Shown here piece after piece: positions 2,860-19,684 of a stretch of 64,000 bases of DNA. The stretch lies in contig NZ_JAUXZY010000002.1 in NCBI RefSeq assembly GCF_030693775.1, positions 29,361-93,360 of the forward strand, read 5' to 3'. This DNA comes from Polynucleobacter sp. GTDB lineage: Bacteria > Pseudomonadota > Gammaproteobacteria > Burkholderiales > Burkholderiaceae. The notes below the pieces were generated by a model. The model was not told the DNA's origin. It did no database searches and saw only the letters and a list, made by a program, of their open reading frames with translations. Both the position numbers and the translations under genes were made by a program. How positions within the stretch are numbered: the stretch's first letter is position 1; every line of letters begins with the position of its first letter.

Positions 2860-3702
2860 TTACTGCTTGGGCGGACTAAAAACAACCCGCTCAGGGGCGT
2901 TGTAAATCTCAAAATGGGTTCCAGAGCAACGTGACAGAAGCGTCAGGTGGGTCTTTCGGGCAAGCTCAAGGCCCATCTGGGTTACACCGGAACGCGTCAG
3001 TAGAAAGGGGATGCCCATCTGCGCACCCTTAATGACCATCTCCGAGGTTAAGCGCCCGGTCGTAAAAAACACCAAATCCCGACCCGCCTTGTCAGCCAGC
3101 CACATCAGCCCAGAAATCGAGTCCACTGCATTGTGGCGGCCCACGTCCTCAATAAAGTGGAGCAATTCCACCTGATCCTCGCCCTTGCGCTCAAATACAG
3201 CGCAGGCATGCACTGAGCCGGATTTCTTGTAGATGGTGTCATGCTGGCGAATTTGGTCGATGAGGTCCACAATCGCCGCCTGATTCAAGGTGGGGCCATC
3301 CGCCAGGCGGATTTGCTCCATTTCCTCGATTAAGCCGCCAAACATCGTGCCCTGTCCGCAGCCGGTGGTCACAATGCGCTTACTGGTCATTTGATCGATA
3401 TCGACGGTGCTGCGCCGGGTTTTGACTGCGGCTGAATCCGTTTCCCAGTCAACCTGAATGCTTTCGATGTCATCCGGCGATTCCACCAAACGCTGGTTAC
3501 GCAAATAGCCCAGCACCAAGGCCTCAGGGGCGCTACCGAGGGTCATGAGGGTGACAAGCTCACGCTTGTCCAAATAAATCGTTAGCGAGCGCTCACCCGG
3601 TACATGGACGGTTTTATGACGGCCGGCCTCATCGATGATCTGGACCTCATGGATGAGAGGGACAGAAGCATTGGACATCGCAATTCGGGGATTTACTGCC
3701 AT
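2860..3702 (-). CDS. fdhD: Formate dehydrogenase accessory sulfurtransferase FdhD
   Basis: 280 aa. FdhD passes sulfur from the cysteine desulfurase to the molybdenum cofactor of formate dehydrogenase. Seen here are the TTGCGQGTM loop around residue 115 and the [10 protein letters not shown] motif near residue 190, both diagnostic. In the E. coli protein the loop carries two cysteines (CXXC); here Cys115 is followed by Gly at the second position. An AGGAAG ribosome site lies 7 nt before the ATG, fixing the start. It is divergent from metG. No formate dehydrogenase structural genes are in the window, so its client must lie elsewhere; formate from the nearby oxalate genes is a likely ultimate substrate (inference). 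Confidence 0.94.
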
Positions 3703-7551: not shown

Positions 7552-8484
7552 CTAGGCAGTAAAAAATTGCTCTACCGCTAAGCCAAGGCTTTTAGCTAAC
7601 TCTGCACCGCTGACTTTACCAGCAGGTCCTTTGGCTTTTAATACCTCAATCTGACCACCATGGCAGGCCACAAAAAAGGATTCGGAACCAATCGCCGTGA
7701 TTTGCCCAGGCTTACCTTTGACGGCGCCGTAGGTCGCCGTGACGTGTTTCTTGACGTCATAAATCTGTACTTTTTGTTCGCCAACCATGGTCCAAGCGCC
7801 AGGCGCCGGATTGCAGGCCCGAATCAAGTTATGGATCTGCGTAATGTGGTTTGACCAATGGATGCGAGCGGCCGCCTGATCGAACCAGCCTTCGTAATTA
7901 GCAAGGGCCTCGTCTTGCACAACCTCTTGGTGCTTGCCTGCAGCAACCAGATCAGCAGCCTCTAATAGCGCCTGCACCCCAAGCGGAAATAGGTGATCAA
8001 AGTAAACCGATCCCAAGGTATCGTTCGCGCCAATGGCGACCTCTTTTTGCAAAATCACTTCGCCCTCATCCAGACCATCGGATGGCCGGAAAATGGTAAG
8101 GCCTGTCTTGGTCTCGCCTAAAGCAATAGCCCAGTTAATGGCGCTGGGACCACGGTACTTTGGCAGCAATGAGGGATGGTATTGAATCGTGCCCAAGCGC
8201 GGTATCTTGGCGAGCTCTTGGGGGACAAATTGCAACACATAGGCCATCACGCAAATGTCTGCGCCGCTGTTGCGCATTGCCTCAGCCGCCTCTGGCCCCT
8301 TGAGCGAGGCAAATTGCAAGGGCACGAGGCCTTTCGCAAGAGTTGCCTCTTTCAAAATCTCAGGCTTGGTGGCTTTGGGATTGTCCGGAGGACAAAACAC
8401 CGCAACCACCTCGTCACCACGCTCTAAAAAGGCCTCTAAAGCAGCCTTACCAAAATCTTGACTGCCGATTAGAGCAACTTTCAT
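7552..8484 (-). CDS. 10-formyltetrahydrofolate hydrolase-like formyltransferase
   Basis: 310 aa with an N-terminal formyltransferase fold (~1-180) and a C-terminal Fmt-like OB domain (~205-305). It is not the housekeeping methionyl-tRNA formyltransferase: instead of the NxHxSLLP signature it has YHPSLLPKYRGPSAINW, which matches the hydrolase domain of 10-formyl-THF dehydrogenase (ALDH1L1), including the downstream DGLDEGEVILQKE aspartate segment. The likely reaction is therefore use or hydrolysis of 10-formyl-THF, but a related formyl acceptor or donor is possible. Its ATG follows the frc stop directly (TAGATG), so it is translationally coupled to a formyl-CoA transferase. That suggests a role in handling C1 units made from oxalate (inference). 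Confidence 0.8.
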   Translation of the reverse strand: MKVALIGSQDFGKAALEAFLERGDEVVAVFCPPDNPKATKPEILKEATLAKGLVPLQFASLKGPEAAEAMRNSGADICVMAYVLQFVPQELAKIPRLGTIQYHPSLLPKYRGPSAINWAIALGETKTGLTIFRPSDGLDEGEVILQKEVAIGANDTLGSVYFDHLFPLGVQALLEAADLVAAGKHQEVVQDEALANYEGWFDQAAARIHWSNHITQIHNLIRACNPAPGAWTMVGEQKVQIYDVKKHVTATYGAVKGKPGQITAIGSESFFVACHGGQIEVLKAKGPAGKVSGAELAKSLGLAVEQFFTA

Positions 8485-9732
8485 CTAGATCACTTTCCGA
8501 TGGCGTAAATCGATCAGATCGTCGATGTTAAATCCGAGCTCTTGCAAGATCTCATCGGTATGTTCACCAAGCAATGGTGAACGCGTGACGTCAGTTTCGC
8601 TATCGGACAACTTGATGGGGTTGCCCACGGTTAAGTACTTGCCCCGAATCGGGTGATCGACTTCAACAATCGTGCCGGTAGCGCGCAAGGCTGGCTCTTC
8701 GGCGATTTCTTTCATCGACAGAATTGGGCCGCATGGCACATCATATTTATTCAATGTATCCATCACCTCAAACTTGGTTTTGGTCATGGTCCATTTTTCG
8801 ATCTCACCAAAGATTTGCATGAGCCTTGGCAAGCGCGCCATGGGAGAAGAGAAGTCATGGTCAGTAATCCACTCTTCTTTGCCAATCACCTTACAAATCG
8901 CTTCCCATACGGCAGCCTGAACGACGACATAAATGTAGGAGTTGGGGTCGGTTTCCCAGCCTTTGCATTTCAGAATCCAGCCGGGCTGTCCACCACCAGA
9001 CGCATTGCCGGCACGAGGCACTGCTTCACCGAAATGGCCATTCGGGAACTGCGGATACTCTTGCATGGTGCCATTGCGCTCGAGGCGCTGCTGGTCGCGC
9101 AACTTCACGCGGCACAAGTTCAATACGGCGTCTTGCATCGCAGCCTGCACACGTTGACCACGACCCGAGTGGGTGCGCTGATACAAAGCTGTAACGATAC
9201 CTAAGGCCAAATGCAAACCGGTTCCACTATCGCCAATCTGCGCGCCCGTTACCATTGGCGGGCCATCATCAAAACCAGTAGTGGATGCTGAGCCGCCTGC
9301 GCACTGCGCTACGTTTTCGTATACCTTGCAGTCTTCATAAGGTCCTGGACCAAAGCCTTTGATCGATGCCATGATCATGCGTGGATTGAGATGCTGTATG
9401 TGCTCCCAAGTAAAGCCCATGCGATCCAAAGCACCTGGAGCAAAGTTTTCCACTAAGACATCGCACTCTTTAATCAAGCGCTCGAGAATATCCTTGCCCT
9501 CAGGAGTTTTGGTATTGACTGTAATCGAGCGTTTATTGTGATTCAGCATGGTGAAATACAAACTATCCGCATCGGGTATATCGCGTAATTGACCGCGGGT
9601 AGCATCACCCTCACCCGAGCGCTCCACCTTAATTACATCCGCGCCAAACCAAGCCAATAATTGGGTACAAGTTGGCCCCGATTGAACGTGCGTGAAATCG
9701 AGGATTTTCACCCCCTCAAGTGCTTTTGCCAT
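8485..9732 (-). CDS. frc: Formyl-CoA:oxalate CoA-transferase, paralogue 1
   Basis: 415 aa, class III (CaiB/BaiF) CoA-transferase. The enzyme moves CoA from formyl-CoA to oxalate, giving oxalyl-CoA for Oxc. The [20 protein letters not shown] start, [14 protein letters not shown] and the catalytic aspartate in [10 protein letters not shown] (Asp168) are present. The glycine loop that covers the active site reads [10 protein letters not shown], with Ser replacing the first of the four glycines seen in characterised Frc enzymes and in the paralogue downstream of oxc. It forms its own unit with the formyltransferase-like gene, separated from the oxc unit by an intrinsic terminator. The start has an AGGA ribosome site. 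It could have a somewhat different acceptor from paralogue 2. Confidence 0.88.
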
Positions 9733-9896
9733 AACAGTAGTCCTAATAAGAATTGAAATTTTGAATTAATCAAATTCTACCAGTCGGCACTACCCTGAAT
9801 TCCAGGTGCGCCACAGGCCCTGTATCCCCTAGTTATCAAGCCCTGAAACTGGATTTCGCATTGTGCGATTTAGCCTGATTCTGGGTAAATTAAGCA
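9733..9896 (-). promoter_or_regulatory. Upstream region of frc paralogue 1
   Basis: About 165 bases between the frc start and the oxc-frc terminator, visibly AT-rich near the gene. It should hold the promoter of the frc-formyltransferase unit because transcription from oxc is expected to stop at the terminator just upstream. It contains TTTGAATTAATCAAA, a palindrome resembling an FNR box but with 5 rather than 6 bases between TTGA and TCAA. No confident -35/-10 pair was assigned. Confidence 0.4.
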
Positions 9897-9926
9897 ATAA
9901 AAAAGGCGCCCACATGGAGCGCCTTA
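9897..9926 (-). terminator. Intrinsic terminator of the oxc-frc operon
   Basis: On the minus strand AAGGCGC-loop-GCGCCTT is followed by an uninterrupted T-run (TTTTT), a classic rho-independent terminator. It lies about 25 nt after the stop of frc paralogue 2, so it closes the oxc-frc unit and separates it from the second frc unit. Confidence 0.88.
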
Positions 9927-9950
9927 AAGGATCAAACTAATTTATTGTTA

Positions 9951-11201
9951 TTAAACTGCTTTTGCCGCGTGCAGCTTGGCAATATCGTCTTTTCCGTAGC
10001 CAAGGTCAGCCAAAACCTCATCGGTGTGCTCGCCTAAAACTGGGGATGGCTTCACTTCGATCTTCAAATCAGAGAACTTGATTGGGCTACCAATCGTCAG
10101 ATACTTACCGCGTACCTTGTGATCGACTTCCACAATCGAACCACTTGCACGCAAGTCTGGTGATGCGGCTAGTTCTTTCATCGATAGTACAGGGGCGCAT
10201 GGAATATCAAACTTACGCAAGATATCGACTGCTTCGTACTTGGTCTTATCTTTGAGCCAATCTTCAATGGTTGCGAAGATGTCAAAAATCTTGTCTTGAC
10301 GCGCTTCTGCAGTCATGTAAGCAGGGTCGGTTGCCCACTCTGGACGACCTAAAGCCTTGGTAATTGGCTCCCAAGCGTGACCTTGAATGGTGAAATAAAT
10401 GTAGGCGTTAGGATCAGTTTCCCAGCCCTTACACTTTAAAACCCAACCTGGCTGACCGCCGCCGCCAGCATTACCGCCGCGGGGTACAACGTCGGAGAAT
10501 GTGCCATGGGGATACTGTGGGTACTCTTCCAAGTAACCAACGCGATCCAAACGCTGCTGATCGCGCAACTTCACGCGGCACAGGTTTAATACTGCGTCTT
10601 GCATCGAGCAAGCAACCTTCTGTCCACGGCCAGTCTTCTCACGGTGCATCAGCGCGGTCAAAATACCAATCGCCAAGTGCATACCAGTGTTGCTATCGCC
10701 CAAAGCAGCAGCAGATACGGTAGGAGGACCATCCCAGAAACCGGTGGTGGAGGCTGCGCCGCCAGCACACTGAGCTACGTTCTCATACACTTTTAAATCT
10801 TCGTATGAGTGGCCATCGCTGAAGCCCTTTACCGACGCCATAATCATGCGTGGGTTCAGTTCCATGATGCGTTCCCAAGAGAAGCCCATGCGATCTAAGG
10901 CGCCTGGACCAAAGTTCTCGACCATGACGTCAGAAACCTTAATCAACTTCTCCAATACTTCCTTACCTTCTGCGGTCTTGGTATCCAATGTCAACGAACG
11001 CTTGTTACCGTTGAGCATGGTGAAATACAAGGCGTCAGCATCTGGAATATCGCGTAATTGGCTACGGGTTACGTCGCCAGATCCAGGACGCTCTACTTTG
11101 ATTACGTCCGCGCCATACCATGCCAACAACTGGGTACATGCAGGGCCTGCTTGTACGTGTGTGAAATCGATGATGCGGATTCCGTCTAATGGCTTGCTCA
11201 T
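9951..11201 (-). CDS. frc: Formyl-CoA:oxalate CoA-transferase, paralogue 2
   Basis: 416 aa. This is the more canonical of the two Frc proteins: [10 protein letters not shown] puts the catalytic aspartate at residue 169, the same number as in the Oxalobacter formigenes enzyme as I recall it, and the active-site loop is the intact [11 protein letters not shown]. Residue 48 is Gln ([16 protein letters not shown]), as in E. coli YfdW, rather than Trp as in Oxalobacter. It transfers CoA from formyl-CoA to oxalate. It lies 40 nt after oxc and has a strong AAGGAG ribosome site, and it is followed by an intrinsic terminator, so oxc-frc is one operon. Confidence 0.94.
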
Positions 11202-11241: not shown

Positions 11242-12951
11242 TTACTTCTTTGTAGCAGTACTTGCTGGGTTGAGATTCGTCAGGCGGCCACTTTCGGTGC
11301 CTGCTGTTTCATCAATGACAGCATTGATTAGTGCTGGCTTGCCTGCGGCTATTGCCTCAGTCAATGCCTTCTCTAATTCCTGCGGGGTGGTGACGTTGTA
11401 ACCGATCCCACCAAACGCTTCCATCATCTTGTCATAGCGTGCGTTTTTCACGAATACGGTTGGGGCAACATCAGCGCCGCCGGTTGGGTTTACATCGGTA
11501 CCACGGTAAACACCATTGTTATTGAAAATCACAGTGGTGATTGGTAAGTTGTAACGGCAGATGGTCTCGAGTTCCATGCCGCTGAAACCAAAGGCGCTAT
11601 CACCTTCCACTGCGATAACAGGCAAGCCACTGGTAACTGCTGCACCAATCGCATAGCCCATACCAATACCCATAATGCCCCATGTACCGGAGTCAAAGCG
11701 CTTACGTGGCTTGTACATATCGACAATCGAACGGCAATAGTCGAGGGTATTCGCACCTTCGTTAACGAGGTTGACATCGGGGTTTTTCTTCACAACATCA
11801 CGAATCACACGCAATGCACCATGGAAGTTCATTGGCGATGCTTCTTTGGCAAGTGTTTCTGCCATCTTCGCCATGTTCTTGTCTTTCTTCTCATTAATTG
11901 CGCTAATCCACTCTGCGCTTGGCTTAGGTACCGATGCGATACCTTTCAAGAGTTCGCCTACGCATGAGCCAATATCACCAATCAATGGAGCGTCGATTTG
12001 AACGTTGCTATCGACTTCGTTTGCCTGAATATCAATTTGGATAAATTGCTTACGCTCTTTACCCCAAGTCTTGCCTTTGCCGTGAGCAAGCAACCAGTTC
12101 AAGCGGGCGCCAACTAACAACACTGCATCGGCCTCGGCCAAAACGTATGAGCGGGCTGCAGAAGCAGATTGGGGATGGTTATCAGGCAACAAGCCTTTGG
12201 CCATCGACATTGGCAAGTAAGGGATGCCGGATTTTTCGATCAAGGCCTTGATGTCTGCGTCAGCCTGTGCATATGCAGCGCCTTTGCCCAGGAGAATCAA
12301 TGGACGCTTTGCGCCCTTCAATATGTTTAATGCGCGCGCTACTGCATCAGGCGCTGGAATCTGACGAGGCACTGGATCGATTACCTTGAAGATCGATTTC
12401 TTGGCTTCAGCAACCGACAAGGTCTGCGATAAGAGTTGTGCCGGCAAGTCCAAGTAAACGCCGCCTGGACGACCCGATACCGCAGCACGAATCGCACGTG
12501 CAATACCAATGCCGATATCTTCTGCGTGATTAATACGGTAAGCAGCTTTGGCATATGGCTTGGCTGCATTGAGCTGATCCATTTCTTCGTAATCGCCCTG
12601 CTGCAAGTCAACGATCTCGCGTTCGCTTGAGCCGCTAATCAGAATCATTGGGAAGCAGTTCACAGTTGCGTTGGCTAAGGCAGTTAAACCATTCAAAAAA
12701 CCAGGCGCAGAAACGGTCATGCAGATACCAGGCTTCTGTGTCATATAGCCGGCAATGGCTGCGGCATTTCCTGCGTGCTGCTCATGGCGGAAACCAATAA
12801 AGCGCAAGCCTTCAGCTTGAGCTAAGCGGCACAAGTCAGTAATAGGAATGCCCACCAATCCATAAATGGTGTCAATGTCATTTGCCTTAAGGGCGTCGAT
12901 AACGAGATGGAATCCGTCAGTGAGTTCTTGGTTTTGATTGTCGTTTGTCAT
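11242..12951 (-). CDS. oxc: Oxalyl-CoA decarboxylase
   Basis: 569 aa ThDP-dependent enzyme that decarboxylates oxalyl-CoA to formyl-CoA and CO2. The N-terminal Pyr domain has [11 protein letters not shown] and the catalytic glutamate in GFRHEQHAG (Glu57). The central domain has [10 protein letters not shown]. The C-terminal PP domain has the cofactor motif [18 protein letters not shown] ending in NNNGVYRG. Length and motifs match Oxc of Oxalobacter and YfdU of E. coli. It is the first gene of the oxc-frc operon. A 231-nt upstream region carries an FNR-type site, and a Crp/Fnr regulator gene lies just beyond it. No oxalate transporter is seen in the window. Confidence 0.96.
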
Positions 12952-13029
12952 AAAAGTTGTATTGGTTAGATTGCTTCACTCCGTTGGCAAGGCAATTTAG
13001 CTTCTGTCTTGTGTCTCCGATTAAAAATG

Positions 13030-13067
13030 CACCTAAACCCAGGGAATTAACAAACTGCATTTAGGTG
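13030..13067 (-). promoter_or_regulatory. Inverted repeat at the predicted 5' end of the oxc mRNA
   Basis: CACCTAAA and TTTAGGTG, eight perfect pairs around a 22-nt loop. The start-proximal arm (13060-13067) coincides with the transcription start deduced from the promoter (about 13066). The oxc message would therefore begin with a stem-loop, a feature known to protect mRNA 5' ends; alternatively it is a regulator-binding site. Confidence 0.5.
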
Positions 13068-13072
13068 GATGC

Positions 13073-13114
13073 ATCTTAGGCTTGGGGGTGTAGATCAGCA
13101 TTGACTTGCGTCAA
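13073..13114 (-). promoter_or_regulatory. Predicted FNR-type class II promoter of oxc
   Basis: TTGACTTGCGTCAA (13101-13114) has perfect TTGAC/GTCAA arms with a 4-base spacer, the geometry of Crp/Fnr-family boxes of the FNR class. Reading the minus strand, a -10-like TAAGAT (13073-13078) lies so that the palindrome centre is at -41.5 relative to a start at about 13066, which is the class II activator position. There is no need for a separate -35. The site lies between the Crp/Fnr-type gene and oxc. Geometry was counted by hand. Confidence 0.65.
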
Positions 13115-13182
13115 TTTCCTTTTAATTCCAATAAAAACAAGGCTTAGAGCCTGCTGGAGGCAAAGCCAAATCCATATAAAAA

Positions 13183-13800
13183 CTAGACAAATAGATCTTT
13201 GTGCTTTGTTTTTAGGCGACTTAGGGTCTCGGGGGACAAATTCAAATAGGCTGCAAGCTCTTTTTTGGGTAAAAGTCCAAAAAGGCTCTCGTACTTACGC
13301 AGAAAGCGCTCCACGCGGCCTGGTGCATCGAGCATATGCAAGGTAATGGTGTGGGCCATGATTTCACTCATCAGGCGCATTACCTCAAACTCAAAACTCT
13401 CTTTGAGGGGAACATGATTCTCTAGGAACTCAGTCCACTTTTTCATGGGCATGCGCGCAACCCTAGCCTTGGTAACGCAAGCAATACTGTAAGGGGCAGA
13501 CTTCTTGAGGCGCCATGCGGCATAGCTGGTTTCGATGTCTTTTTCGATCGAAAAACGCAAGATCATTTCTTTTGCATCCGAACTTGAAACGATGCGCTTC
13601 AAAATACCATCCAAAATAAAGTACTGCTCCATTTGATGGTCGCCCTGGTGCAACAAAATCTCTGATTTTTTTAGGTCAGAAATCACCAGATGGCGCTCTA
13701 GTTCGGCCATGCTTGCTGGATCCAGATGCTGCAAGACGATGTTTTGACTCAGCTGCAAGCGAATCAGGTTTTTTTCGAGGTGTTTGTCTAGTACTGTCAT
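13183..13800 (-). CDS. Crp/Fnr-family transcriptional regulator, cysteine-poor
   Basis: 205 aa. Residues ~25-120 form a cyclic-nucleotide-binding-like beta-roll (HQGDHQMEQYFILDGILKR), followed by a long dimerisation helix and a C-terminal winged helix (KKELAAYLNLSPETLSRLK, ~179-197). The recognition helix has Glu191, Ser194 and Arg195 in the E-xx-SR pattern used by FNR to read TTGA half-sites. It has a single cysteine, so it cannot hold the N-terminal [4Fe-4S] cluster of FNR, and it also lacks a clear cAMP-binding signature. Its ligand is unknown. It is encoded upstream of oxc on the same strand, and the FNR-type box lies between them, making oxc its probable target. Confidence 0.85.
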   Translation of the reverse strand: MTVLDKHLEKNLIRLQLSQNIVLQHLDPASMAELERHLVISDLKKSEILLHQGDHQMEQYFILDGILKRIVSSSDAKEMILRFSIEKDIETSYAAWRLKKSAPYSIACVTKARVARMPMKKWTEFLENHVPLKESFEFEVMRLMSEIMAHTITLHMLDAPGRVERFLRKYESLFGLLPKKELAAYLNLSPETLSRLKTKHKDLFV

Positions 13801-13853: not shown

Positions 13854-13875
13854 TATTTGGAGGTCTTAAATGCAG

Positions 13876-13881
13876 TAGAAT
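13876..13881 (+). promoter_or_regulatory. Candidate -10 element for the riboswitch-btu transcript
   Basis: TAGAAT lies just upstream of the first conserved riboswitch helix, at a distance that would start the transcript a few bases before the aptamer. I see no good -35, so this is tentative. Confidence 0.3.
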
Positions 13882-13887
13882 TGAAAT

Positions 13888-14072
13888 GTTATGGTGCTTT
13901 ATTGCATTGCAATAAAGTTAAACGGGAAACACTACTCAAACGTGTGCTGCCCCCGCAACGGTAAGCAAATGTGCCTTGTAGCGAGGTACGGAGAACTTGG
14001 ATATAGCCACTGTGCGCGTCAATCGCATGGGAAGGTCAAGTTCTTAAATTTGCCAGCCCGGATACCGGCCAA
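13888..14072 (+). ncRNA. Cobalamin riboswitch
   Basis: The conserved blocks occur in the right order: GGTGCTTT at the first helix, AAACGGGAAAC, then TGCTGCCCCCGCAACGGTAAGC, and the B12 box at the 3' end, GCCAGCCCGGATACCGGCC. Cobalamin (adenosyl- or other forms) binding normally lowers expression of the downstream uptake genes, here btuB-btuF-btuC-btuD. The 165 nt between the aptamer and the btuB ATG, which hold no other gene, must contain the expression platform. I see no clear intrinsic terminator there, so control of translation is more likely than termination (inference). Confidence 0.95.
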
Positions 14073-14237
14073 AACAGGTGGAATTTTGCGGACGGGGATC
14101 CTTCGCGCGCCGATAGAAGCGTTCGTACGGATTCCGTGCGCCGCACATATTGACGTTCTGGACTCACGCCCATGAAGTTCTGTTCGACTCGGCTAACGGG
14201 GAAGTTGGCCTGGTGATTCGACGGCAGAAGGTTCATC

Positions 14238-16172
14238 ATGAAACAGCAGTTCAGAAATACCCAGTGCAGATTTGCGCTGTTAGCAACGCTTTTATCGAGT
14301 GCTATTCCATTTCAAAACGCAGCAGCACAAGCATCATCGGTATCGGTATCCAATTCAGCAGACCCGCTCAATCCAATTGTTGTCACGGCAACACGAACAC
14401 CCACTAAGGCAAGTGATGTTCTTGCAGACAATATCTACATTGGCCCAGAGGAAATTGCACAGGCAGGACAAACTAGCCTAGTGGAATTACTTCAGAGGCA
14501 ACGGGGCGTCGAGATTACTGGTGGCACGGGTAGCGGGGGTAGCGGCACGAGCGTTTTCTTAAGGGGTACCAGCAACCAACAAACCTTACTCTTGATTGAC
14601 GGCGTTCGCGTTGAGGCAGGCTTTTTGGGTGGGCCATCATGGTCCGCCATTCCCCTTGCAATCATTGACCACATTGAAATTGTTTTTGGGCCACAAAGCA
14701 GTCTTTATGGTTCAGATGCCATCGGCGGCGTCATTCAAATCTTTACAAAAACAGGGGATGGGCCCTTTCAGGCAAGCGCATCGACTGGATACGGCACCTA
14801 TGGAACAACCATCTCAGAGGCTGGGCTATATGGCCGCGGGGGTGAAGATGGAAAGATAAAGTATTCCATCAGCGCTACTCAAGAAGTTTCATCGGGCTTT
14901 AATCTAATTGCAAAAAATAATCCATTTCGCTCAAGCTCCAACACTAGCCAAAATATGGGCTATACAAGGGATGGCGGCACAGGAAAAATTAGTTACGAGC
15001 TTGGCAAAGGCCAGGAAGTCGGATTGCAATTTTTTGCCAGCCGACTGAAATCCCAGGCTTCAGCAGATCCAACCACGCTTGCAGAGTCGATAGGTAGTGT
15101 CAGTAGTTTTTCAGTTTTCTCTAGAAATCAGATTACAGATATTTGGAAGAGTTATCTACAGGCATCTCAGTCATATGACTCTGGCCAAAATTTGTTTTAT
15201 AACTCCCTTTACAACACCAAGCAAAATATTTACACATGGCAAAACGATATTCAAATTGGGAAAGATATTCTTCAGCTATTAGCTGAGCGAAGAACGCAAA
15301 ATGTTTTCTCTGATGATGTCAATTACAACACCTCCTTCCAGCAGGAGCAGTTTTCGCAAACACGAAATACCAATTCGCTCGCCGGCCTATATCAACTAAA
15401 TCGAGGGCCGCATTTAGCGAATCTTTCGTTTAGGAATGATGGCATTACAGGCTATGGCTCTCAAAATACCGGCGGAGTTTCTTATGGATACTTCTTTACG
15501 AAACAGCTGAGAATAAATGTCAATTATGGAACCGGCTTTCGAGCCCCAACATTCAACGACCTCTACTACCCAGGGTACGGCAACACCAATATTCAAGCAG
15601 AAAAAAGTAAAAATACCGAGGCGGGTATTCACTATGAGTCCCGTACATATGATGCCCGAATCGTTGCCTATAACAACACGATTACCAATTTAATTCAATC
15701 GTCTGGTAGCAATACCAGCGCCTGCGCCCCAGGTGTTTATGGCACCTCTGGATGCGCGACCAATGTTGGGGCTGCCAAAATTACAGGCCTCTCGATTGGC
15801 GGGGCTTTAAGAACAGGAAATTTCAGTCTCAGAGGCTCATTCGATCAACAAAACCCAATTAATGAAACATCGGGCGAGGTATTAGCAAGGCGAGCAAAGC
15901 AATTTGGAAATGCGGGAATTGACTACCAAAAAGGCTTGATCAAAGCTGGAGTGGAAGGAAGCTTTGTAGGAACACGCTATGACAGCTATCCTGCCGGCGC
16001 AGCAATGGGAGGGTATGCAGTATTTAATCTCTATGGAGATTATCAATTAATGCGGGATTTATCTCTTTTTGCTCGCTGGAATAATGTATTCAACAAAGAC
16101 TATCAATTGAGTTATGGATATAACACGCCAGGTTCAAATATCTTCGTTGGCCTACGTTATGCGATGAAGTAA
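14238..16172 (+). CDS. btuB: TonB-dependent vitamin B12 receptor
   Basis: 644 aa outer-membrane receptor. It begins with a signal peptide ending near QNAAAQA (~residue 31). A TonB-box-like NPIVVTATRTPT follows at ~47-58. The plug domain has LLQRQRGVEITGGTGSG, FLRGTSNQQTLLLIDGVR and SLYGSDAIGGVIQIFT, all standard for BtuB. The remaining ~450 residues form the 22-stranded barrel, with a typical WNNVFNKDYQLSYGYN near the end. An AGAAGG ribosome site precedes the ATG. The upstream cobalamin riboswitch makes B12 the substrate with good confidence. It is the first gene of the btuB-F-C-D unit. Confidence 0.93.
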   Translation: MKQQFRNTQCRFALLATLLSSAIPFQNAAAQASSVSVSNSADPLNPIVVTATRTPTKASDVLADNIYIGPEEIAQAGQTSLVELLQRQRGVEITGGTGSGGSGTSVFLRGTSNQQTLLLIDGVRVEAGFLGGPSWSAIPLAIIDHIEIVFGPQSSLYGSDAIGGVIQIFTKTGDGPFQASASTGYGTYGTTISEAGLYGRGGEDGKIKYSISATQEVSSGFNLIAKNNPFRSSSNTSQNMGYTRDGGTGKISYELGKGQEVGLQFFASRLKSQASADPTTLAESIGSVSSFSVFSRNQITDIWKSYLQASQSYDSGQNLFYNSLYNTKQNIYTWQNDIQIGKDILQLLAERRTQNVFSDDVNYNTSFQQEQFSQTRNTNSLAGLYQLNRGPHLANLSFRNDGITGYGSQNTGGVSYGYFFTKQLRINVNYGTGFRAPTFNDLYYPGYGNTNIQAEKSKNTEAGIHYESRTYDARIVAYNNTITNLIQSSGSNTSACAPGVYGTSGCATNVGAAKITGLSIGGALRTGNFSLRGSFDQQNPINETSGEVLARRAKQFGNAGIDYQKGLIKAGVEGSFVGTRYDSYPAGAAMGGYAVFNLYGDYQLMRDLSLFARWNNVFNKDYQLSYGYNTPGSNIFVGLRYAMK

Positions 16173-19153: not shown

Positions 19154-19502
19154 AGTCACGCTCGCCGGTCAAAAAATCACGCTTGCCACTACCACTGAGC
19201 ATGAGCCCCTATTGCGCGAGGCCTGCACCTTGGTTGACGAACAAATTCAGCTAGCGATTACAGGTGGTAACCGCAGCATCGAGCGTGCCACCATGATGGC
19301 TGCCCTGAAGCTTGCCGGTGATCTGATTTCAAGTAAACGTCTGGCCGCAGATACTGCTGCGCAGCTATCAATGCAATCCGCTGCAATCCATCCAGATGAG
19401 GTAGCTCGGCTCGAAGCGGAAATCAAAGGCCTCGAGTTACAAGTGGATGCATTGCTGCAAACCCTTTCCCTGCCTGGCTCGCCAAGGCCAATAGATCTTT
19501 GA
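19134..19502 (+). CDS. zapA: Cell division protein ZapA
   Basis: About 122 aa. ZapA cross-links FtsZ filaments at the division ring. The globular N-terminus is IEVTLAGQKITLATTTEHEPLLREA, followed by the family's ATMMAALKLAGDLI helix and a C-terminal coiled coil (EVARLEAEIKGLELQVDALL). I chose the ATG at 19134, which has AGG at a good distance; an in-frame ATG two codons upstream (19128) is possible. It overlaps the coiled-coil gene by 20 bases and is followed directly by 6S RNA, a gene order conserved across Proteobacteria. Confidence 0.92.
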   Translation: MSQQRIEVTLAGQKITLATTTEHEPLLREACTLVDEQIQLAITGGNRSIERATMMAALKLAGDLISSKRLAADTAAQLSMQSAAIHPDEVARLEAEIKGLELQVDALLQTLSLPGSPRPIDL

Positions 19503-19684
19503 ACCGATGCGCAAGCATACGGAGCGATCTTTGCAATGTGGGCGTGAGCGTTTCGCAACCGTACAGTGGCAGCCTCGAGCTGTTCACTCCCTGCGCTGCT
19601 TAGTGCACCCGAAGCATGGCGGCCGCTCCACCTTGAACCCGAGGGTTCAGGATAAGGGCCTAGCGGCTAAGGCGGGGAATTCAG
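19500..19684 (+). ncRNA. ssrS: 6S RNA
   Basis: No protein gene fits this GC-rich stretch between zapA and the TauE gene. It contains CACCTTGAACCCGAGGGTTC, close to the 3' domain hallmark CACCTTGAACCAAGGGTTCA of E. coli 6S RNA, followed by an AGCGGC-rich 3' strand. The location directly after zapA is the usual place for ssrS. 6S RNA mimics an open promoter and sequesters sigma-70 RNA polymerase in stationary phase. Ends are approximate because I could not fold the terminal stem with confidence. Confidence 0.85.

Follow-up and report, generated by a model that had tools for sequence, protein, structure and literature searches.

The window, the whole 64-kb stretch of Polynucleobacter DNA that was analyzed, carries an oxalate operon on its minus strand. 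Read in the direction of transcription, it consists of a gene for a 205-aa regulator of the Crp/Fnr superfamily (positions 13183–13800; assigned by profile match and alignment), the oxalyl-CoA decarboxylase gene oxc (11242–12951; TIGR03254, 993.8 bits), the formyl-CoA transferase gene frc (9951–11201; TIGR03253, 731 bits), a second frc copy (8485–9732; TIGR03253, 738 bits), and a formyltransferase-like gene (7552–8484; PF00551/PF02911, under the fmt cut-off). The tandem frc pair 3′ of oxc (8485–11201) has 218 bp between its copies, and the second copy directly abuts the formyltransferase-like gene, so these two are probably on one transcript. Elsewhere in the window are an fdhD gene (2860–3702), a cobalamin riboswitch (RF00174, 79.4 bits; 13875–14087, plus strand) upstream of a gene for a BtuB-like TonB receptor (14238–16172), and a 6S RNA (RF00013, 59.7 bits; 19464–19682, plus strand).

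Between the regulator gene and oxc lies a minus-strand palindrome, TTGAC-GCAA-GTCAA, centered at 13107.5 (TTGACTTGCGTCAA at 13101–13114; TTGACGCAAGTCAA on the minus strand, 13114–13101), which from its sequence and conservation is a candidate operator and the proposed site of the regulator. Exactly 22 bp after it comes the putative −10 element TAAGAT (13073–13078; ATCTTA on the plus strand), which reads TAATAT or TAAGAT in relatives. When this element is placed at −12 to −7, geometry alone predicts that oxc transcription starts at the A at 13066 and that the palindrome is centered at −41.5. An earlier note had described a palindrome of FNR geometry with a TAAGAT placed for such a center, and this arrangement was confirmed at the exact coordinates, far beyond chance. 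The conserved footprint around the operator in the genus alignment (13095–13119, minus strand; consensus GGAAATTGACCGAAGTCAATGATGA) spans the −35 region, where the hexamer read from the conserved columns is poor (consensus ATGATG, 17-bp spacer, 3/6 matches to TTGACA) and is overlapped by the proposed activator site, as in class II activator-dependent promoters. A consensus scan listed no minus-strand sigma-70 promoter in the oxc upstream region. By itself, the 14-mer is weakly unusual and only suggestive: the window has a single exact copy of TTGACNNNNGTCAA against 0.10 expected, and the 1.94-Mb genome has five against three for the reversed control. Its significance comes from its conservation across the genus.

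Loci were gathered by homology to the regulator rather than by the motif; 112 of them yielded both genes, and the regulator was followed by oxc in every one of these. TTGAC-N4-RTCAA was kept in each of the 94 distinct regulator–oxc intergenic sequences of the genus, with the GTCAA arm in 93 of them (one relative, L061, carries a single TTGAT half-site), and 16 further loci agreed with this pattern. The distance from the palindrome to the −10 element was 22 bp in 91 of the 94 sequences and 23 bp in the other three, and the −10 element itself was TAATAT (50 sequences), TAAGAT (40), TAACAT (2), TATTAT (1), or TAGTAT (1). Even three loci with divergent flanks (L108, L111, and L114) retained the palindrome, the 22 bp, and TAAGAT. 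When parsimony changes were counted on the tree of the regulator gene, the two half-sites accumulated 0,0,0,0,0 and 1,0,0,0,0 changes, a total of one over 10 positions, compared with 0–8 in the −10 element, as many as 27 across the spacer that separates palindrome and −10, and a mean of 29.2 (minimum 11) at 38 fourfold-degenerate sites of the regulator gene. The comparison of relatives with the same gene order, which the earlier note had proposed as a check, thus came out in favor of a conserved palindrome.

In nearly all oxc-bearing Polynucleobacter, the regulator gene adjoins the oxalate operon. Among 186 genomes of the genus, the regulator was present in 148 and oxc in 153, and the gap is accounted for by contig ends (G123 and G175, where the site is still visible), decayed copies (G032 and G033), and seven genomes with a divergent oxc (L137–L143). 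In these seven, oxc was 73–77% identical and the regulator was missing, and no TTGAC palindrome was found when as much as 600 bp before oxc was searched; an ORF in one of them contains a TTGAT palindrome. In two (L137 and L138), oxc lies directly 3′ of an ORF resembling a formate dehydrogenase alpha subunit. Likewise, 20 oxc loci of other Burkholderiaceae genera showed no match to the regulator and no TTGAC palindrome within at most 600 bp before oxc; for two of these 27 regulator-less loci, the upstream sequence available was no longer than about 330 bp. At 12 of the 20 loci outside the genus (L156, L161, L166, and L168 among them), the gene upstream of oxc encodes a GntR/FCD homologue, confirmed by Pfam in four cases; as in Polynucleobacter, a regulator gene precedes oxc, but it belongs to an unrelated protein family and comes with no TTGAC palindrome. 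One further neighbor at these loci was confirmed as an MFS transporter. In some Polynucleobacter genomes (L146, L147, L149, and L151), stops or truncation have disrupted the regulator or oxc. Where the regulator was broken (L146, L147, and L149), the site was retained, with a spacing of 21 in L147; where oxc was truncated (G035, L151; the match in G035 covers only residues 1–362), the site had decayed to TTGACCGACGTTAA. Because a single locus carries both regulator and site and is inherited as a unit, their co-occurrence within the genus does not amount to many independent events.

The regulator has a cNMP-binding-like beta-barrel domain (PF00027, 31.9 bits; cut-off 27.5), and its PDB matches include CRP and DNR chains, with 3dn7 the best. 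It showed no Pfam match to HTH_Crp_2 or Crp, the winged helix-turn-helix (HTH) models, and the R of ETLSR is followed by only 10 more residues. This recognition helix (SPETLSR), with E191-T-L-S194-R195 invariant in the genus alignment, has the E-x-x-S-R pattern typical of FNR/FixK proteins that read TTGA half-sites. From this sequence and from the 3dn7 match, the aligned chain of which also stops just after the recognition helix, we infer a Crp/Fnr-like protein with an atypical C-terminus and a wingless HTH; since the usual wing and a Pfam HTH match are both missing, its DNA binding is itself putative. The N-terminal cysteine cluster of FNR is absent, and the single cysteine, C108, is unconserved in the genus. 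E. coli CRP contacts cAMP through E72, R82, and S83; in a phmmer alignment to a CRP chain, these positions are replaced in the regulator by S92, A102, and P103, which are invariant in 28 genus sequences. With a pLDDT of 58.8, the structure predicted from 28 close relatives was of unusable quality. The closest sequence relatives found outside the genus are short Crp/Fnr proteins of the Bacteroidota type (PDB 3dn7; Chryseobacterium, Hymenobacter), with about 29% identity (plasmid records only); no relatives outside the genus were found at 1e−25 in 399 genomes of the family Burkholderiaceae or at 1e−12 in 350 genomes of the class. Unlike these relatives, the regulator sits in a betaproteobacterium; there it is tied to oxc-frc and the TTGAC palindrome.

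As judged from its residues, the regulator is not FNR. The label “FNR-type” given in the earlier note therefore holds for the geometry and the E-x-x-S-R recognition helix, but not for the protein, which lacks the cysteine cluster, nor for the half-site, which is TTGAC rather than TTGAT. The FNR/FixK-type class II promoters, such as those of E. coli FNR and Bradyrhizobium FixK2, likewise combine a 14-bp TTGA...TCAA palindrome centered at −41.5, a regulator with an E-x-x-S-R helix, and a poor −35 element. The oxc case differs from them in its TTGAC half-site, in a regulator without Fe-S cysteines or a wing, and in having apparently one target. This last point follows from a search of 14 genomes for TTGAC-N4-GTCAA, another check that the earlier note had called for, with a favorable outcome: 43 sites were found, including all 14 oxc sites, and the remaining 29 showed no excess over the 31 matches of the reversed control. 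A larger regulon was therefore rejected, and the regulator looks like a local, essentially single-target protein with oxc apparently its sole target. Across 80 loci, the 250 bp preceding the regulator gene itself contained no such palindrome that could serve autoregulation.

A terminator-like hairpin (AGGCTCTAAGCCT-TGTTTTTATT; 13140–13152, minus strand) between the regulator gene and the operator suggests a separate oxc transcript, although such hairpins are barely enriched (two in the region against 1.5 expected). From the predicted start, this transcript would have a 115-nt 5′ leader (12952–13066, minus strand). In most relatives, the leader contains a conserved RNA element composed of GGAGAC, the hairpin TTAGC-GAAA-GCTAA, and the stem ATTGCA/TGYAAT (e.g., L060:4703–4829 and L097:4712–4829). 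In this element, 88.7% of cells pair, and pairing drops markedly in slid versions; there is some covariation, with double changes at six pairs where shuffles give 3.0. There was no Rfam match above gathering for the leader, and its core sequence was absent from viral contigs. The element is missing from several clades, absent in short-leader clades, and degenerate in the window (12952–13066), and is thus not part of the core switch. For the leader of the window itself, a stable fold with a CACCTAAA/TTTAGGTG hairpin was rejected because it was no more stable than shuffles (z 0.16).

Taken together, the protein and promoter sequences make it likely that the adjacent regulator acts via TTGAC-N4-GTCAA as a class II activator, local and dedicated to oxc-frc. 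In the oxc promoter, the 205-aa protein would bind as a dimer to the site centered at −41.5 and, compensating for the poor −35 element, would activate transcription of oxc-frc-frc from 13066. Its effector may be an oxalate-linked signal; our guess is oxalate or an intermediate of its breakdown, for instance, oxalyl-CoA or formyl-CoA. The regulator stays with the operon across Polynucleobacter. A bolder reading, which we put forward tentatively and regard as rather doubtful, is that a wingless Crp/Fnr protein of the Bacteroidota type has become, in one betaproteobacterial genus, a single-target sensor-activator of the oxalate operon that acts via TTGAC-N4-GTCAA and senses oxalate or a CoA-thioester rather than cAMP or oxygen.

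The genome also encodes a genuine Fnr (locus L036), with a CSTCVLGQFC cluster and the recognition helix ETVSR, which shares the E-T-x-S-R motif with the regulator. Since the site geometry suits FNR class II promoters and L061 carries one TTGAT half-site, this cysteine-rich protein might bind the site, so that oxc would be under oxygen control and the adjacent regulator would do something else. However, the canonical TTGAT-N4-ATCAA is itself enriched in the genome (10 against 1 for the control), with one copy placed 87 bp ahead of an ORF that resembles a cbb3 oxidase, and it occurred in none of the 94 intergenic sequences, in which TTGAC was present on at least one arm in all 94 and on both arms in 93. 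This difference throughout the genus argues for the neighboring protein as the binder, and the site is missing where the regulator is missing, despite the presence of oxc; control by the true Fnr is accordingly unlikely.

The conservation of the site is silent on the sign of regulation, and FCD-type GntR proteins, such as those upstream of oxc in the other Burkholderiaceae, are often repressors; the palindrome might thus be bound by the regulator or another protein as a repressor, with repression lifted by oxalate. Nevertheless, a center at −41.5, a fixed spacing to the −10 element, and no good −35 element form an activator arrangement, and a repressor would not need a 22-bp spacing held in nearly every sequence, so that we give repression a marginally smaller chance than binding by the true Fnr. 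It is highly improbable that the inverted repeat, which is found 3′ of the regulator stop codon, is an RNA hairpin, for example, at the end of the regulator transcript, instead of a protein operator: its 5-bp stem is weak and is not followed by a T run, its arms hardly vary and show no compensatory changes, the terminator-like hairpin at 13140–13152 is separate, and the fixed distance to the −10 element would be left unexplained.

Dedicated input to such genes has a parallel in E. coli, where yfdXWUVE, which likewise includes oxalyl-CoA decarboxylase and CoA-transferase genes, is controlled by EvgA according to PMC6339873 (PMC3720670 deals with YfdE); EvgA, however, is the response regulator of an acid-responsive phosphorelay, and the Polynucleobacter regulator is Crp/Fnr-like instead. 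The open-license literature searched held nothing specific on a Crp/Fnr or other specific regulator of the oxc-frc pathway, and the earlier note likewise considered such control of oxalate use not known to be described. The pattern found here speaks for a switch of oxalate use that has one target, and no description of such a switch was encountered in that literature.

Polynucleobacter is an abundant freshwater genus, and most of its genomes retain the oxalate operon with its putative switch. Described strains fail to assimilate oxalate (PMC5018217, four species; PMC3308952), yet the operon and its switch are under strong constraint in most genomes. The operon therefore probably serves to supply energy or to detoxify, for example, with oxalate from photo-oxidized humic matter, and the effector of the regulator offers a directly testable handle on that role.
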